DNA of 26,644 nucleotides from a virus. Each line of letters opens with the position of its first letter. Positions within the stretch are counted from its first letter, which is position 1. Location: positions 1 through 26,644 of IMG/VR virus record IMGVR_UViG_3300032083_001344. One strand, written 5' to 3'. A program made the position numbers and the translations under genes. The notes under the pieces are model-generated. The model was not told where the DNA came from, made no database searches, and worked only from the letters and a program-made list of their open reading frames with translations. Shown piece by piece: positions 1 through 26,644 of this stretch.

Positions 1-3000
1 AAAACAGTTGGGTCGTAATTAAACGCGGCTGGATCCGTACACCCAGGCCATAAACAAGAACCATCTGCATTATTTACCGATGGATTATAATTCATAGCTG
101 TTGGATCCATACAACCATAAGTTACTGGATCATAAGTACAAGAACCATCATCAACATTAGCTAATGGATTATAATTATTTGCTGCTGAATCTGTACAGCC
201 CAAAACATCTGGAACGTTTATACTTACTAAAGCGCCTATACCTTGTATTGCAAAACTTGCTTGATCCCAAAGAGAACTACCATCACTGTTTACTACAATA
301 GATGAATCAGAAGCCATGTGATCAATATCTTCTCCTTTTAGATAGAAAAACCATTTACCTTCTTTTTCAATAAACTCTTCTATTCTACCTTTTTCTTTAT
401 TTGTAAATACAGCGTCAACGTACCAGCCTTGTTTTGCAGTAAGATTATAATACTCGTTATCTGTAGTTATTGGAATTGTATTTCCATAATCATCTACTGT
501 AGTTGAAACAAAAGGCGTAACTCTTGTTTGAGTTCCTTCATAGTTAACTGTATGGAAAGATTTAACTAGACCTGGGCTGTCGTTTAATATTACATTAAAA
601 GAAGATGGTGTTGTAATATTATAAAAAGTATTTCTAGGTTTGCTTTCGTCATGATGTCTCCATAAATTACCGCTATTAAAAGTGTAATATTGATTAGCAC
701 AACTAATACCATTATTAGTTACAAAAGATTTAAAACTAACCCATCCTCTTACGTTTTCTTTAAAAGTAACAGACTTTCCAATAGTCTCAGTTGTTGTTTG
801 TAAAGATATATTGTATTCATCTTTTCTATCGTCATAACTACCAATTAACTTATTATTTAATTTTAAGTTATCTCTAAACCAATCTTCCATACCATGATTA
901 GATATAGGTGTTAGTCCATCTGTTGATAATCTCATAACAGCACCTCTAACTTTATCAGTAAAATATGCTCTATAAGATTCTGAGGCAAATGACTCTGGAT
1001 TTTTTGATATACCATATTCACCAGTGTAAGGCATTGCTGATCCTAATACTCTATTGGTAGCTGTAATATTACTATTTCCATCAGCGTTAAATAATGCATC
1101 TTTATTAGCTAGTATTTTTAAAACTCTATCTTCGCATAATGTTATTAAATCTCCACTTTGCCCCCAACCAGCTTTTAATTTTTGTATACTACCGTAAATA
1201 GGATTTATATCTTTTGTTATTTTTTCAGCCGCTATAAACTGATTTAAATTATTAACACCTGAAGTAGAATTATATATTCCTGAGTATATTAAACCGTGCT
1301 TTCTTCTTTCTTGTTTATATTCAACATCTAAAGTTGTAGATGCTTTAACACCATTAATTATAAATGGTAAATTAAAATTATCTTTAATTCTATTAGACTC
1401 AACACCGTTTCTAAAAGAAAAGCAATTATGCCAATTTAAATGATATCTACTATTGTATATTGTAGTATCTAATACAATTTTAGTTGAAATTTGTGGATTA
1501 GCAAGATCTGGAATTAATTGCGCAACTCTTACGTCAAACGCGTTGCCATTAGGCTTTGTTATTTTTAAAATATCACCAACGGTTAAAGGTTGTAAAGTTA
1601 AATTACCAAATACAAAAGGACCAGAACCTATATAAATCCCAGCTGGTAATCCTGGTACGTCTAAATCTATAGTATCTCCAGTGGCAGAAATGTTGTTTAA
1701 AACAGTAACATTATCCCAAGCATGTCCAAATCCAGAAGTATTTTCAACTCTAGACCCAATAGGTATTGCCGAGATAATGGTGGTGGTGTCTAGATTTATT
1801 GGATTATTTTCACTTATTTCATAATAAATATCTAGATCAGTATCTTCTTTAGGTTCTGTTTCCCAAACAAAAGGATCTGGAGGTAAATTACCACCGTCGC
1901 TATATTCGTCTACAGGCTCCACCATTATCATGTTATAACCAACAGCTGCCATAGCTCCAGCTGGAGCTGTTCGATCTATGTTCAACCAATAATCATAAAA
2001 ATAATCAGTATTATGTTCAGTGTAATTACTAGCGCCATTCATAGATACTTGTCTAAATTCTAAATTTTGACCATTAATTAAATTAGTACTAATATCATCA
2101 CCGTTCCAATGAAGAGGTTCTGTATAACCACCTAAATCAAGTCTATAGAAAGTTGTGGCTGGATCATATGTAATCTTTTTAACAACTAGATTTGGTTGAT
2201 CAGGTGTTGCTCCTAAATTATTATACCGAGTAAGCATCATGCCCTCGTGTAATTTATATTTAGGAAGAGCACTGTTATTTTGACAAGTTGAGAATATAGT
2301 GTCAACTATTAAATAATTTTCTTTTTGAGTCGTAAAACTACCGCTTCCCCAAACAGAGTGACTTTGTAGTTGTATGTCTTGTAGTTGTAGTCCGTTACTC
2401 ATAAAAGTACCAGGAAGCGCTGTTGGATCCCAACCACTACCAGTCGTGTTATCCATAGACGGCTCTACCCATAAATCCCATCTTCTATGGTATGAACCAG
2501 ATCTATCGTCTAATAATAAATCACCGTGAGGATAAGAATTACTATCATAACCCATATCATGCCTACCAAATCGAACTCTGTTTTGAACACTAACTTGGTT
2601 GTAAAATGTATATATCGTTTCTGTTGGATCATGCTCCCATTTAAATTTAGCACCAGAAGTAAATTGTTTAACAAAATTAACTGTACCAGCATCCCCATGT
2701 GCGCCAACACCATCTTCACCTACACTAAAAAAATCTTCTGCAATAGTATTAAAATACTGGGCAGGCGTATTGTTATCAGGTCCAAGTACTAAATTGTTCA
2801 TAATACCACCAAAACCAATACTCATTTTAGTAGAATCTATCCCTGAAAAATGAGCAGCACCAGGACCAGTATTAAGAGATGGGCTCCAACCAGCGGCATT
2901 TGGATTGTTGTTTCCTGGTACACCGTAGTCTGGTGATAAATGACTTGTTTCATTATTTTGAGGCCAAAAAAGACTCGTAACAGAACCATCACCACCAGAA

Positions 3001-6000
3001 TTTGAAGTGTATTTTTCTGTTGATCGATCTATAAACCAAACGCCAGAAGTACATCCATTATTTTCCGCTTGATTATTAAAAGATGGGTATATTGACTCTC
3101 CGCCAATACAGTTATTTAAGTATAAGTCATAACCGCCTAGGGAAGACTGAAAATCGTGATCATATTGAGAGTAGCCAAAATAAGATTGTCTTGCGTAAAA
3201 GTAATTGAAATTTGTACCAAGTGGATTAGTGTCGTTTGGCCCAACAAAATCACTACGCACTTCATTAGAGTAGTCATGGTCAGTTAACCGCTCCATAATT
3301 CCATTGTAATAATTAGCACCCGAAGAAAAAGTTGCGTTACTTTGTCTACTCATTAACAATGAATCAGAATCTAAAACATAAATAGTTTTTCTAGCTGTTT
3401 CTATATAATTAACACCAACAGAATCATCTGTTATTTGCGTTTTAATCTTACCATCGTTTTCAATTTTAGCAAAAAATCTACCATCAAATATTGGTTTATT
3501 TTCAACAACTGCTTTTGAAAAAAGAACTTTTACTTGATCTTGAATAGCGCCTGGAGAAGCTGCGTTATCAAATATAAAGTCCATATCTTCTTTTAAATTT
3601 GTATCTAAAGTTACGTAATATTGAGTGGCAGGATCGTCTTTAGTAATTTCTGATATTTTGTATTTCGCAGAGTAATTATTACCTAATACAAATTGTACGT
3701 ATAAATCTTCTGTGATAGTGTCTAAACTTGATAAACTACTAGCTGCAAAAACAGGGGAACCAGCAGCACCATCCCAGTTCATAGTAAAACTAATACCATT
3801 GACTGCTGGAGCATCTTGTAATTCAGCGCCGGAAGCACCAAACAAGTAAATAGGAGTTGGAGTTGCTGTTGTGTTATGTGTAACAGTACCAATCCTAAGC
3901 TTTCTAGTTTTGATAAATTCAGGCGCTTCGTTTTCTATAGCTAAAATTTTATATCTAGTTGTATTTTCTATAGCGTCTTCATTACCTTTTTTAAAGTATA
4001 AAGAAGTTTCTAAATCTACCTTGTTTCTATCGTTAGAAGGAAACGCTAACCATATATTACCATCTTCCGCTTGGTACCATCGATCCATAGCTAGATTATA
4101 GTATTCAGTAGAAGTTTCTTTTATAAAGAATTTAAAGTAAGCCATGTTTTCTGGGGCAGAACCTTTTAATCCTACTACTAATCTATTAGCATTTTTACTT
4201 TGTTCTTTGTCTACTTTAAATCCACCAGACTCACTAATTAAAATAGGTGTTTCTCTACCGTAATCATCTGTAAAAACAACGCCAAGTTTATAATCTCTTA
4301 ATGATTTAATTGATTTTTCAACACTACCTTTATCGCCATAGCCTCGTGTCGCCAAACTATTTGTAAACTCAGGTTTAAACTTTTTTTGGTAACCACCACT
4401 TCCAACAAGTAAATCAAAGTTTTGCTCGTAATTACCATATATTATTCTACTACCAGTAACATCTTGAGCTAAAGCTTTTTTAGGCACATTATCCCAAGAT
4501 CTTAAAAGTTGATTAGAAGGTAGAGTGTATTTTATTGATTCTGATTCTATAGTATAAGTACCAGTATACCAAGGATTAGGAGTTCCTGTAGGCATGAGGT
4601 CTAGCGGACTAATAGTTTCAACAACATATACATTAGGAGAACCTTCTTCTTTGTATAATATATCAACTTCAATAACATCTTTACCTAAAGGCTGGTTCAT
4701 TATTGTTGGTACAAAACCTTGTAGTTGTATTGATGTAGCATGGTTAACCATACCTTTATTGTAACCTTTGCTAGATTCGTAGCTAAAATTTGAAGGCAAA
4801 AAACCTACGTTAGACCATGGGGCAAAAGTTGAATATTCCCCGTCTCCATATTTATATCTATAAGAAAATTTAGGAAATTTATCTTCAAATATTGCCTCTT
4901 GTTCTACTTCTAAATCTACAGCGTAATTTAAAACAGTACCTCCACTAGCAATTATAGAAGATGGTACTTGTGGTGGAGTTCCATCTAAACCTATTATCTG
5001 TATTTCAACATGCGCTGTACCAGGAGCAGAAGAAGGCCAATCACTACCAACAAGACCAGCTTGGTAACCAGCAGCAAGTTGATTATTTTCAAATTGATTA
5101 TATTGCCAACCCGTTATTACGCCTCGTATAGTAAAATTAGTTAACGGTAATGGTGGAGAAGTTTGCACGCCATAATCATCAACGTTGTATTCTTTTAGTA
5201 TTATAATATCACCTTCTTTCCATGCTAGTGTAAAGTTTTCAGCATTATTCGAATCTGTTTCAATTTCAAATTGAACAGTATCATTTAGTTGGAGAGTTGA
5301 AAAATCAGATATTACTGAATTATTTGAAGAATTTATTATAGAAGAAGCATTAATATTAGCGTTAATACCTGGATCTATAGCTGTATAAGTTATACCAGAA
5401 TAAGTTAATTCAGGATCTCTTCCGCTTGACATCTCTAAGGTTAAAGCGTTTTTAGGAGTCTTTCTAATAACAGTTATATGCTCTTCTTGTACAGGGTGGT
5501 AATTTGACAATGATAATCCAGTTGCATCATTAACAATGGCAGTGTGCTTTTCTCCATTATATTCTGTTCCTTCAATACTACGTAATATATTTATTTTTTT
5601 TGGTTCTGTAAAGTTATCAGTCCAAAATAACATATCATCTACGATGTTAATACCTGTGACTAGATTATTATTTTGAAAGTTTAATACTCTAGGAAAACCA
5701 AATTCTATGGTAGATACATTGCTTAAATCTACGTCTTCGGCTAACACAGCAGAATTAACTGATAAATCATTACTAAAACTTAAATTAACTGGATTGTTAG
5801 AAGAGGGAAGTACTGGTGTTGTAAGGTCACTACAACTAACTACATCGTAAACGCCTGGGTTAACGGGACTTTGTTCAACTAAACACGAGTTTGATGGCCA
5901 AGAATTGCTACCGTCATCTATAGATACAACAATAGCGCCACCAGAAAGCGCTAAATCAATTTCGCTAACCCAAGTTAAATCAGTAACAGTTATTTCGTTG

Positions 6001-7049
6001 GTAAACGTAGGTATAACATAATCAATACTAAATCCCCAATTAGTCATATCAATAGCACCACCTCCAATACCTGGCGCGCAGCCAGCATAACTCCCTGCTA
6101 AATCGTAATTTCCTGATTCAAATTCTTGTTGAAAAATTAATAAATCATTAGGATCATTTAATACCACCAAGTCGTAAACACTACCAAAAGGATCTGGTAT
6201 AACACTATATTGTGTTGTGTTTATTATAACAAAACCATTTGGATCTGTTATTCGTAAATAATTTGTCCCACCATTAGGTAGATTTGGAAACACACCGCCA
6301 AAAACATTGTTTAAATCATAAAAACCACTTGGAATATAAGAGCCTAATGTGCCCGTAGTATAAGGTCCTGGGCTTATAACATTACCCGGTGCAAACTCAT
6401 TTCCACATTGAACATACGCCGCGGTTTGAGCTATATTAGTATTAGGTATAACTGAAATAGAAGTAGCCATTCCCATTGTAACATTGTACTCAACACCTGG
6501 TATAGAATTTATAGTACCTACATTTATTACTGGTTGTGAAAATTGTGAAACACCACTAGCATCGTAACCAGTTGCTGTCATGCCTATAGCAGCAAAATCT
6601 ATAATACCAGGGGAATTTAATTGATTTATAGCCGTGCTATTGTCAATATTATCTACAACGTAATTATATATATCTACAAAAACAGGTTCGCATCCAGAAG
6701 GTAAGGCTGGATTAGTACGCATTATCATGTCTTTTTTAATATTATAATCACCACTACTACTAGGAGCACCGCTATTAGGTCCGGCAACTAACCAGTATAA
6801 AGAGTCATTTTTTTCATCTGAAACAGAACCAATTGTGGTTGATGCTGGTTGAATCGGATTGTCATTAGAATCCTCGTAAAAACAACCAGGAGTGTTACCT
6901 AATACATTTTGTATAGTGCCAATTTCAGATTCTTCTGAAGATGACACTTGCACATTCATTGCATCTCTATATTCGCCTGGTGGAACAAGTCTTTCGTCAA
7001 GATCTTTGTTCATTTTACCTTTGGTAAAATTACGCTTCATCTCTGGCAT
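1..7049 (-). CDS. Giant tail protein (nozzle-like) with C-terminal Cys-rich repeats, partial
   Basis: One uninterrupted frame runs from an ATG at 7049 to the left edge, giving at least 2349 residues without a stop. The start lies three bases after the stop of the upstream ring-protein gene. The N-terminus carries GKMNKDLDERLVPPGEYRD (about residues 11-29), and a later stretch (about plus 1280-900) has LCEDRVLKILANKDAL and ESYRAYFTDKVRGAVMRLS. I recognise both as conserved in the large tail protein that follows the ring proteins in crAss-like and marine podoviruses, probably a nozzle comparable to P22 gp10 or T7 gp12. The last ~70 visible residues hold at least three GCTDP-type Cys repeats. 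Most of the middle is beta-rich with no domain I can name. The 3' end lies outside the window. Likely role: distal tail tube plus a host-contacting tip. The nozzle call is inference from position and recognised stretches. Confidence 0.85.
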   Translation of the reverse strand, partial: MPEMKRNFTKGKMNKDLDERLVPPGEYRDAMNVQVSSSEESEIGTIQNVLGNTPGCFYEDSNDNPIQPASTTIGSVSDEKNDSLYWLVAGPNSGAPSSSGDYNIKKDMIMRTNPALPSGCEPVFVDIYNYVVDNIDNSTAINQLNSPGIIDFAAIGMTATGYDASGVSQFSQPVINVGTINSIPGVEYNVTMGMATSISVIPNTNIAQTAAYVQCGNEFAPGNVISPGPYTTGTLGSYIPSGFYDLNNVFGGVFPNLPNGGTNYLRITDPNGFVIINTTQYSVIPDPFGSVYDLVVLNDPNDLLIFQQEFESGNYDLAGSYAGCAPGIGGGAIDMTNWGFSIDYVIPTFTNEITVTDLTWVSEIDLALSGGAIVVSIDDGSNSWPSNSCLVEQSPVNPGVYDVVSCSDLTTPVLPSSNNPVNLSFSNDLSVNSAVLAEDVDLSNVSTIEFGFPRVLNFQNNNLVTGINIVDDMLFWTDNFTEPKKINILRSIEGTEYNGEKHTAIVNDATGLSLSNYHPVQEEHITVIRKTPKNALTLEMSSGRDPELTYSGITYTAIDPGINANINASSIINSSNNSVISDFSTLQLNDTVQFEIETDSNNAENFTLAWKEGDIIILKEYNVDDYGVQTSPPLPLTNFTIRGVITGWQYNQFENNQLAAGYQAGLVGSDWPSSAPGTAHVEIQIIGLDGTPPQVPSSIIASGGTVLNYAVDLEVEQEAIFEDKFPKFSYRYKYGDGEYSTFAPWSNVGFLPSNFSYESSKGYNKGMVNHATSIQLQGFVPTIMNQPLGKDVIEVDILYKEEGSPNVYVVETISPLDLMPTGTPNPWYTGTYTIESESIKYTLPSNQLLRSWDNVPKKALAQDVTGSRIIYGNYEQNFDLLVGSGGYQKKFKPEFTNSLATRGYGDKGSVEKSIKSLRDYKLGVVFTDDYGRETPILISESGGFKVDKEQSKNANRLVVGLKGSAPENMAYFKFFIKETSTEYYNLAMDRWYQAEDGNIWLAFPSNDRNKVDLETSLYFKKGNEDAIENTTRYKILAIENEAPEFIKTRKLRIGTVTHNTTATPTPIYLFGASGAELQDAPAVNGISFTMNWDGAAGSPVFAASSLSSLDTITEDLYVQFVLGNNYSAKYKISEITKDDPATQYYVTLDTNLKEDMDFIFDNAASPGAIQDQVKVLFSKAVVENKPIFDGRFFAKIENDGKIKTQITDDSVGVNYIETARKTIYVLDSDSLLMSRQSNATFSSGANYYNGIMERLTDHDYSNEVRSDFVGPNDTNPLGTNFNYFYARQSYFGYSQYDHDFQSSLGGYDLYLNNCIGGESIYPSFNNQAENNGCTSGVWFIDRSTEKYTSNSGGDGSVTSLFWPQNNETSHLSPDYGVPGNNNPNAAGWSPSLNTGPGAAHFSGIDSTKMSIGFGGIMNNLVLGPDNNTPAQYFNTIAEDFFSVGEDGVGAHGDAGTVNFVKQFTSGAKFKWEHDPTETIYTFYNQVSVQNRVRFGRHDMGYDSNSYPHGDLLLDDRSGSYHRRWDLWVEPSMDNTTGSGWDPTALPGTFMSNGLQLQDIQLQSHSVWGSGSFTTQKENYLIVDTIFSTCQNNSALPKYKLHEGMMLTRYNNLGATPDQPNLVVKKITYDPATTFYRLDLGGYTEPLHWNGDDISTNLINGQNLEFRQVSMNGASNYTEHNTDYFYDYWLNIDRTAPAGAMAAVGYNMIMVEPVDEYSDGGNLPPDPFVWETEPKEDTDLDIYYEISENNPINLDTTTIISAIPIGSRVENTSGFGHAWDNVTVLNNISATGDTIDLDVPGLPAGIYIGSGPFVFGNLTLQPLTVGDILKITKPNGNAFDVRVAQLIPDLANPQISTKIVLDTTIYNSRYHLNWHNCFSFRNGVESNRIKDNFNLPFIINGVKASTTLDVEYKQERRKHGLIYSGIYNSTSGVNNLNQFIAAEKITKDINPIYGSIQKLKAGWGQSGDLITLCEDRVLKILANKDALFNADGNSNITATNRVLGSAMPYTGEYGISKNPESFASESYRAYFTDKVRGAVMRLSTDGLTPISNHGMEDWFRDNLKLNNKLIGSYDDRKDEYNISLQTTTETIGKSVTFKENVRGWVSFKSFVTNNGISCANQYYTFNSGNLWRHHDESKPRNTFYNITTPSSFNVILNDSPGLVKSFHTVNYEGTQTRVTPFVSTTVDDYGNTIPITTDNEYYNLTAKQGWYVDAVFTNKEKGRIEEFIEKEGKWFFYLKGEDIDHMASDSSIVVNSDGSSLWDQASFAIQGIGALVSINVPDVLGCTDSAANNYNPLANVDDGSCTYDPVTYGCMDPTAMNYNPSVNNADGSCLWPGCTDPAAFNYDPTV
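3..200 (-). repeat. GCTDP-type Cys-rich coding repeats (3 visible units)
   Basis: Translated on the minus strand, the end of the giant tail gene shows three consecutive units following the pattern G-C-[TM]-D-x-[AT]-A-x-N-Y-[ND]-P, ending in D-G-S-C in the complete ones. Units begin at 200, 116 and 44, giving spacings of 84 and 72 bases (28 and 24 residues). The third is cut by the window edge after DPTV. Units of this kind are common in secreted proteins of marine Bacteroidota. The paired Cys and the Asp/Asn pattern suggest small disulfide- or metal-stabilised modules. That function is inferred. Confidence 0.85.
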
Positions 7050-26001: not shown

Positions 26002-26496
26002 CTACTTACTTATATACAATTTTTTATTCATTATATACATCTCTCCAGTAGGTATGTATTTTAACTCTCTACCTAATAAGTCATATATTTTGCCATCAAC
26101 TGTATTATGACTAATTTCTTTAATAGATGTCGTATTACCTGTATCTAATAATACCCATGTAAATCCGTTAAACGCAAAGTAATCACAATCTGAACATGTA
26201 TATATAAACCCACTAACATCAATGTAAACATCGTAACACACATGCAACGTGTCAGTCATTTCGAACGGTTGGAATATAACGTTTATACCAGAACCAGGAT
26301 AACAAAACTCGTCAGTGCATACACCCCACTCCCAAGTTACATCACCCGGTATATTAGGTAAATACCCAGCTAATATCAGCGGATAACCAATTGTATTTGA
26401 TGTTGTAGCTGTATATGATATAGAATCACAATATATAATTTGTGCTTGTGTTTGTAGTCCAAGCAATACTAATAATATTAAGATAAATTTTTTCAT
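26002..26496 (-). CDS. Secreted protein with T9SS-like C-terminal sorting domain (164 aa)
   Basis: Residues 1-19 form a Sec signal peptide (MKKFILILLVLLGLQTQAQ, likely cut after Ala18). The mature part is beta-rich with six Cys (23, 60, 65, 87, 101, 104), two in a CSDC pair, consistent with disulfides outside the cytoplasm. The last ~35 residues (SHNTVDGKIYDLLGRELKYI, then PTGEMYIMNKKLYISK) match the flavobacterial type A T9SS sorting domain pattern: K-[IV]-Y-D-L-L-G-R-E, G-x-[MI]-Y-I, and a basic end. Such tails direct export through the host outer membrane by the type IX system. In a phage this suggests a product displayed on or released from the host cell. Its body is not recognised, so the role could be surface change, exclusion or lysis aid. 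Confidence 0.8.
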   Translation of the reverse strand: MKKFILILLVLLGLQTQAQIIYCDSISYTATTSNTIGYPLILAGYLPNIPGDVTWEWGVCTDEFCYPGSGINVIFQPFEMTDTLHVCYDVYIDVSGFIYTCSDCDYFAFNGFTWVLLDTGNTTSIKEISHNTVDGKIYDLLGRELKYIPTGEMYIMNKKLYISK

Positions 26497-26531: not shown

Positions 26532-26542
26532 AGTGTGACACT
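26532..26542. repeat. Inverted repeat AGTGT-G-ACACT
   Basis: A perfect 5-base palindrome with one central base lies 36 bases upstream of the secreted-protein ATG. Nearby GTGAC and GTCAC words recur (26505-26510, 26573-26579). It could be an operator, but it is short enough to arise by chance. Confidence 0.3.
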
Positions 26543-26613
26543 AGCCAGTTACTCTATACTATTAATAGCCTAATGTCACATAAAAATGTTATAAATATAG
26601 ACGAATTGCGCTG

Positions 26614-26639
26614 CCCCCTATACCCCTGGTACCCAGCCC
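26614..26639 (-). promoter_or_regulatory. G-quadruplex-type motif
   Basis: The minus strand has G-runs of 3, 3, 4 and 5 separated by CT, TACCA and TATA, which satisfies the four-run, loop 1-7 rule. It is isolated in a very AT-rich genome and lies about 118 bases upstream of the first gene seen here, in a region with no other gene evidence at the right window edge. Confidence 0.55.
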
Positions 26640-26644
26640 GTTAC

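Follow-up and report, generated by a model that had tools for sequence, protein, structure and literature searches.

The stretch of DNA analysed here, referred to as the window, comprises the 26,644 nucleotides of IMG/VR record IMGVR_UViG_3300032083_001344 and encodes a terminase, a portal protein, virion structural proteins, groEL and groES. Our gene of interest, at 26002-26496 on the minus strand, is an open frame of 164 aa that runs from an ATG to a stop codon. The features at this locus and the evidence used to define them are as follows.

26002..26496, minus strand: gene for a predicted secreted protein of 164 aa, stop codon included (open frame; homologues in viral contigs and host MAGs; dN/dS).
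26440..26496, minus strand: signal peptide and invariant Gln, residues 1-19, MKKFILILLVLLGLQTQAQ, with predicted cleavage between A18 and Q19 (sequence; alignment A1; Q-rule).
26128..26439, minus strand: passenger, residues 20-123, a predicted beta-sandwich that is weakly FN3-like (alignments A1 and A5; AlphaFold; Foldseek).
26005..26127, minus strand: candidate short T9SS-type C-terminal domain (CTD), residues 124-164 (spacing; cleavage-like motif; host-only HMM; hhalign).
26534..26580, no strand assigned: palindromic element TGTGACATTAG...CTAGTGTCACA, 37 nt upstream of the start codon, which marks an insertion slot (kept in relatives with and without the gene).

The protein begins with MKKFILILLVLLGLQTQA followed by Q, which confirms the signal peptide of the original prediction and makes it a Sec signal peptide that follows the 'Q-rule' of Bacteroidetes (PMC5837995). 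The assignment was made by eye and from conservation: the first 11 homologues all have A18 and Q19 (alignment A1), and [AS]Q is retained in 26 of the 32 family members that begin with a signal peptide-like M[KRN]. The ORF as a whole has no significant family match in Pfam, NCBIfam or PHROGs, and a profile search did not find PF18962 in the viral record.

The gene at 26002-26496 is a genuine phage gene. A profile search identified homologues in 44 viral contigs as well as in host MAGs, and a DNA pattern for the tail retrieved 14 viral stretches, most of which are recognizable as the same family. Relatives of the window found through groEL carry the homologue at the same position, upstream of groEL, with about 39-40% identity; groEL and the terminase of the window and of those same relatives share about 83-92% identity. 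The family also occurs in DNA polymerase/clamp-loader phages with a groEL of their own (L182) and in other viral lineages (L178, L195, L206 and L213). Marine Flavobacteriales share it with phages of theirs from several lineages. A tblastn search with four family members against cultured phages returned no credible relative. The cultured-phage relatives of the window's terminase infect Flavobacterium, Cellulophaga, Tenacibaculum and Maribacter, and the host is therefore probably a member of the Flavobacteriia. Because the gene sits at the end of the window and the same family is present on host chromosomes, the possibility that it is host DNA joined by an assembly or binning artefact, or a functionless host gene carried along by accident, had to be weighed. 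In long viral records (29-96 kb), however, the gene lies in the interior and phage genes flank it to either side; pairwise dN/dS values among close homologues are mostly 0.1-0.3, which indicates purifying selection, and the family spans several phage lineages. We consider an accidental passenger extremely improbable and reject host DNA at the contig end on the basis of the synteny in independent contigs and the internal copies. The original prediction that the gene is phage-encoded is thus confirmed, and the homologues in other phages whose search it had proposed exist in several lineages.

The 41-residue tail of the ORF is SIKEISHNTVDGKIYDLLGRELKYIPTGEMYIMNKKLYISK. It contains motif B (Y138-DLLGR143), motif D (G151-EMYI155) and motif E, a basic/hydrophobic end KKLYISK, and is preceded by a putative cleavage site at T123/S124-I125 (T/SI); in one relative (L177) the cleavage motif is an exact PT/GI. 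The motif columns B, D and E are invariant in alignments A1 and A2 and lie at the extreme C-terminus, with motif D in its GxxY variant. Six residues separate motif B from the motif D Gly in the window tail, and the tail measures 39-46 aa in nearly all members of the family. Among 38 members motif D is GxxY in 23, as in the window (G151-E-M-Y), and GxY in three, and the Gly is lost in 12. Four members of the sub-clade that lost the glycine also have a degraded signal peptide, and some phages may for these reasons have given up the T9SS route. In the AlphaFold model the tail forms short strands at 136-137, 144-145, 153-156 and 159-163, with a pLDDT of about 70-83.

The type A CTD models PF18962 and TIGR04183 gave no match in any of 11 members at E values up to 10, which we attribute to the tail being a short CTD for which these models were not built. 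An HMM built exclusively from 11 host tails with other passengers scored the window ORF at 44.3 bits (E = 9e-14); these tails had been collected with a profile that included phage tails and are not fully independent of them, although their C-terminal position and their passengers are. The best of 35,000 shuffled ORFs reached 9.7 bits and the next real ORF of the window 3.0 bits, and a match by chance is therefore excluded. Profile-profile comparison (hhalign) with 16 canonical CTDs gave E 8e-4 and a score of 20.0, against a maximum of 14.8 for 100 column shuffles, at a low probability of 24%. The sole credible match in a sequence search of the PDB was the C-terminal end of the arabinanase 4KCA (residues 655-682 of 692, E 3.5e-5).

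The same tail is found in bacteria. A search of 148 genomes from the order of FRAM18_bin188 gave 23 tail matches in 19 genomes, all of them ending no more than 18 residues from the stop codon and 21 no more than 6, and a signal peptide is present in 11 of the 12 host tail proteins whose start is covered. The host passengers joined to the tail are varied and include an M43 metalloprotease with PKD and BNR-like proteins. Passengers and tails are also exchanged: one host (L223) joins the phage protein's passenger to a different tail, VDVLGRKS...LFYIYDDGTVEKKIIIE, which is also found on a Porphyromonas-type peptidylarginine deiminase. L176 and L219 combine a passenger with CxPCDQL with the phage-type tail, whereas L173 and L175 combine it with the other one. 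The position of the tail, the swaps between passengers and tails and the agreement with short CTDs therefore identify it despite the failure of the curated models. The original prediction of a T9SS-type tail accordingly stands in part: the Pfam and NCBIfam profiles reject it, while the host-derived profile, the short-CTD spacing, the cleavage-like motif and the swaps support a sequence that behaves like a T9SS sorting tail of the short-CTD kind. SprA and PorU are present in three bacterial genomes that carry the family or the tail (G001, G002 and G003, with 33, 46 and 80 TIGR04183 matches, respectively).

A second short tail, vvDiLGRETk...LFYIYdDGtvEKriviE, is widespread in marine Flavobacteriales (L174, L175, L239 and L241), where numerous secreted proteins, a PAD_porph enzyme among them, carry it; the two proteins with this tail that were checked had no TIGR04183 match. 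The MAG that contains L175 (CAMBDW010000009.1) carries the label Chryseobacterium gleum, has a size of only about 1.5 Mb and encodes proteins that resemble those of marine Flavobacteriales, and the label is probably wrong.

The passenger domain comprises about 100 residues in which C23, C60, C65, C87 and C101 are invariant and C104 is nearly so (alignments A1 and A5). Its AlphaFold model is beta-rich with a mean pLDDT of 72.5, and the best Foldseek matches are FN3-type domains with an E value of 0.028 or weaker, which is suggestive, at low confidence, of an FN3-like fold. This weak match, together with the position of the gene beside the structural and chaperonin module and in the same orientation, would suit a virion component, that is, an Ig/FN3-like decoration or fibre protein whose hydrophobic N-terminus and tail arose by chance. 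Such an assignment is very unlikely, given that the Q-rule signal peptide is kept across most members, that bacterial chromosomes encode homologues among their secreted proteins and that the gene is optional among close relatives of the phage.

The secreted-protein gene is an optional phage cargo. The palindrome upstream of the groEL module is conserved in at least 24 relatives, and some phages contain two copies of it. Sequence is available for the upstream palindrome in 24 groEL relatives; the secreted-protein gene follows it in four of these and is missing there in 20. Members of the same phage group are split over different clades of the tree, L181 grouping with copies from other phages and L085, L124 and L188 lying together in another clade, and the slot has therefore probably been filled more than once; the tree leaves the origin of the window's own copy without a resolved position. 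We rejected the palindrome as a structured RNA, its inner halves varying independently as judged by eye, and an Rfam search of the window gave no match. A DNA operator is more likely than a structured RNA, and the element resembles an operator or promoter of a phage. Upstream of it, at 26597-26644, lies a GC-rich non-coding stretch (GGGGGCAGCGC...), and similar sequence is found beside the palindrome in relatives.

Other candidates for T9SS cargo were found in these phages. In a phage-contig protein at L162:14024-14536 on the minus strand, a type B T9SS domain scores above the cut-off (TIGR04131, 42.6 bits); the protein adjoins a family member whose passenger is extended or duplicated. In L200 (1786-4176) and L212 (10458-12848), the family gene is immediately followed by one for a 796-aa protein that has a signal peptide, repeats of the form GCTDPxAxNYxPxAxxDDGSC and a type-2 tail; these proteins are likely to be a second T9SS cargo in these phages. 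In the window, the large virion protein at 3-7049 on the minus strand (phrog_14478) has GCTD repeats at its end, like host T9SS cargo. Its C-terminus is hypervariable across 80 relatives and may hold the receptor-binding part; no C-terminal CTD was found in the 80 relatives, and this protein was rejected as a second T9SS cargo.

The explanation we favour, to which we assign a probability of about 0.72, is that a marine phage with relatives among Flavobacterium and Cellulophaga phages carries the gene as optional cargo, and that the product would leave the cell through Sec and then, by means of the short tail, through the host T9SS. For export through the host T9SS the inferential support is good. 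Sec would export the product, and cleavage before Q19 would leave Q19 as the new N-terminus. The short tail, which has motifs B, D and E only in its 41 aa, would then be captured by the host T9SS, by PorV at SprA, and be cut off near T123/S124, and in the course of infection the small cysteine-rich beta-sandwich domain would be either anchored on the cell surface or set free. All steps after the signal peptide, from PorV recognition and cleavage to the surface location and the function, we infer by analogy with the work on Prevotella intermedia and from general T9SS knowledge (PMC12618676). The likeliest use would be an alteration of the host surface that benefits the phage, such as one that blocks the adsorption of competing phages or trapping by debris. 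Receptor masking and superinfection exclusion, which the original prediction put forward, are candidate roles. A surface protein that comes from the phage, is present in some relatives only and is replaced between lineages would fit competition between phages. The role may instead be nutritional or adhesive. That the proteins constitute a dedicated phage surface-protein family, exchanged among unrelated phages of marine Flavobacteriales, which relies on a minimal T9SS signal, overlooked by present annotation, for coating the infected cell and keeping out competing phages, is a tentative extension that we think could well be wrong.

The product could instead be exported by Sec only and act in the periplasm, where it might, for instance, control lysis or block DNA injection; the tail would then be a remnant of an origin as host T9SS cargo. 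Many phage exclusion factors are small periplasmic proteins, the motif D glycine is gone in the 12 members noted above and the standard profiles miss the tail, all of which would agree with a periplasmic product. On the other hand, the window copy and most members keep motifs B, D and E, their spacing and the cleavage-like site at about 40% overall identity, and other phages have two adjacent signal-peptide proteins with different tail types, which a mere remnant does not predict; we therefore regard Sec-only export as unlikely. Because such tails escape current models, short-CTD cargo of phages and marine Flavobacteriales is invisible in annotation. The family extends short CTDs beyond Prevotella and reveals a recurrent phage cargo, and its 41-residue tag makes the alteration of the host surface by phages through T9SS directly testable.

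The closest known counterparts of the tail are the short CTDs of P. intermedia (Ye et al. 2025), which were shown by experiment, in the only species reported to have them (PMC11969387). These have about 40-55 residues, a B-D distance of 1-6 and a PT/GI cleavage consensus (PMC11969387). A GxY motif D with an absolutely conserved Gly and a three-stranded sheet that binds PorV also count as marks of the type. The tails described here resemble them in length, motifs B, D and E, the B-D distance of 6, the basic residue after the motif B Gly, the T/SI or PT/GI-like cleavage motif and a predicted final beta-hairpin; they differ in that motif D is mostly GxxY rather than GxY and that the carriers are Flavobacteriales and phages. 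Compared with the type A CTD (TIGR04183 / PF18962), the second half aligns (V-x-IYD-x-x-G-x-V ... L-x-x-G-x-Y), whereas the N-terminal YPNP half is missing and the curated models miss the tail. Phage-encoded T9SS cargo is already known (PMC7468147, PMC6949934). In Cryophage (Bellas et al. 2020), for which superinfection exclusion was already suggested, the T9SS-labelled cargo is likewise encoded by the phage and varies between related phages, but its type A sorting domains sit on an endoglucanase, a GH39 and a PA14 protein (PMC7468147), whereas ours is a small protein without a recognized enzyme domain that has a short CTD and recurs in several phage lineages. The crAss-BACON proteins are similar in that their phage ORFs lie near structural genes and include T9SS sorting domains, and different in having BACON repeats as passenger, gut phages as carriers and an annotated sorting domain (PMC6949934). 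We found neither a short CTD outside Prevotella nor a conserved phage cargo family with one in the open-licence literature; the short CTD in marine Flavobacteriales and their phages, and the conserved phage cargo family that carries it, are new.
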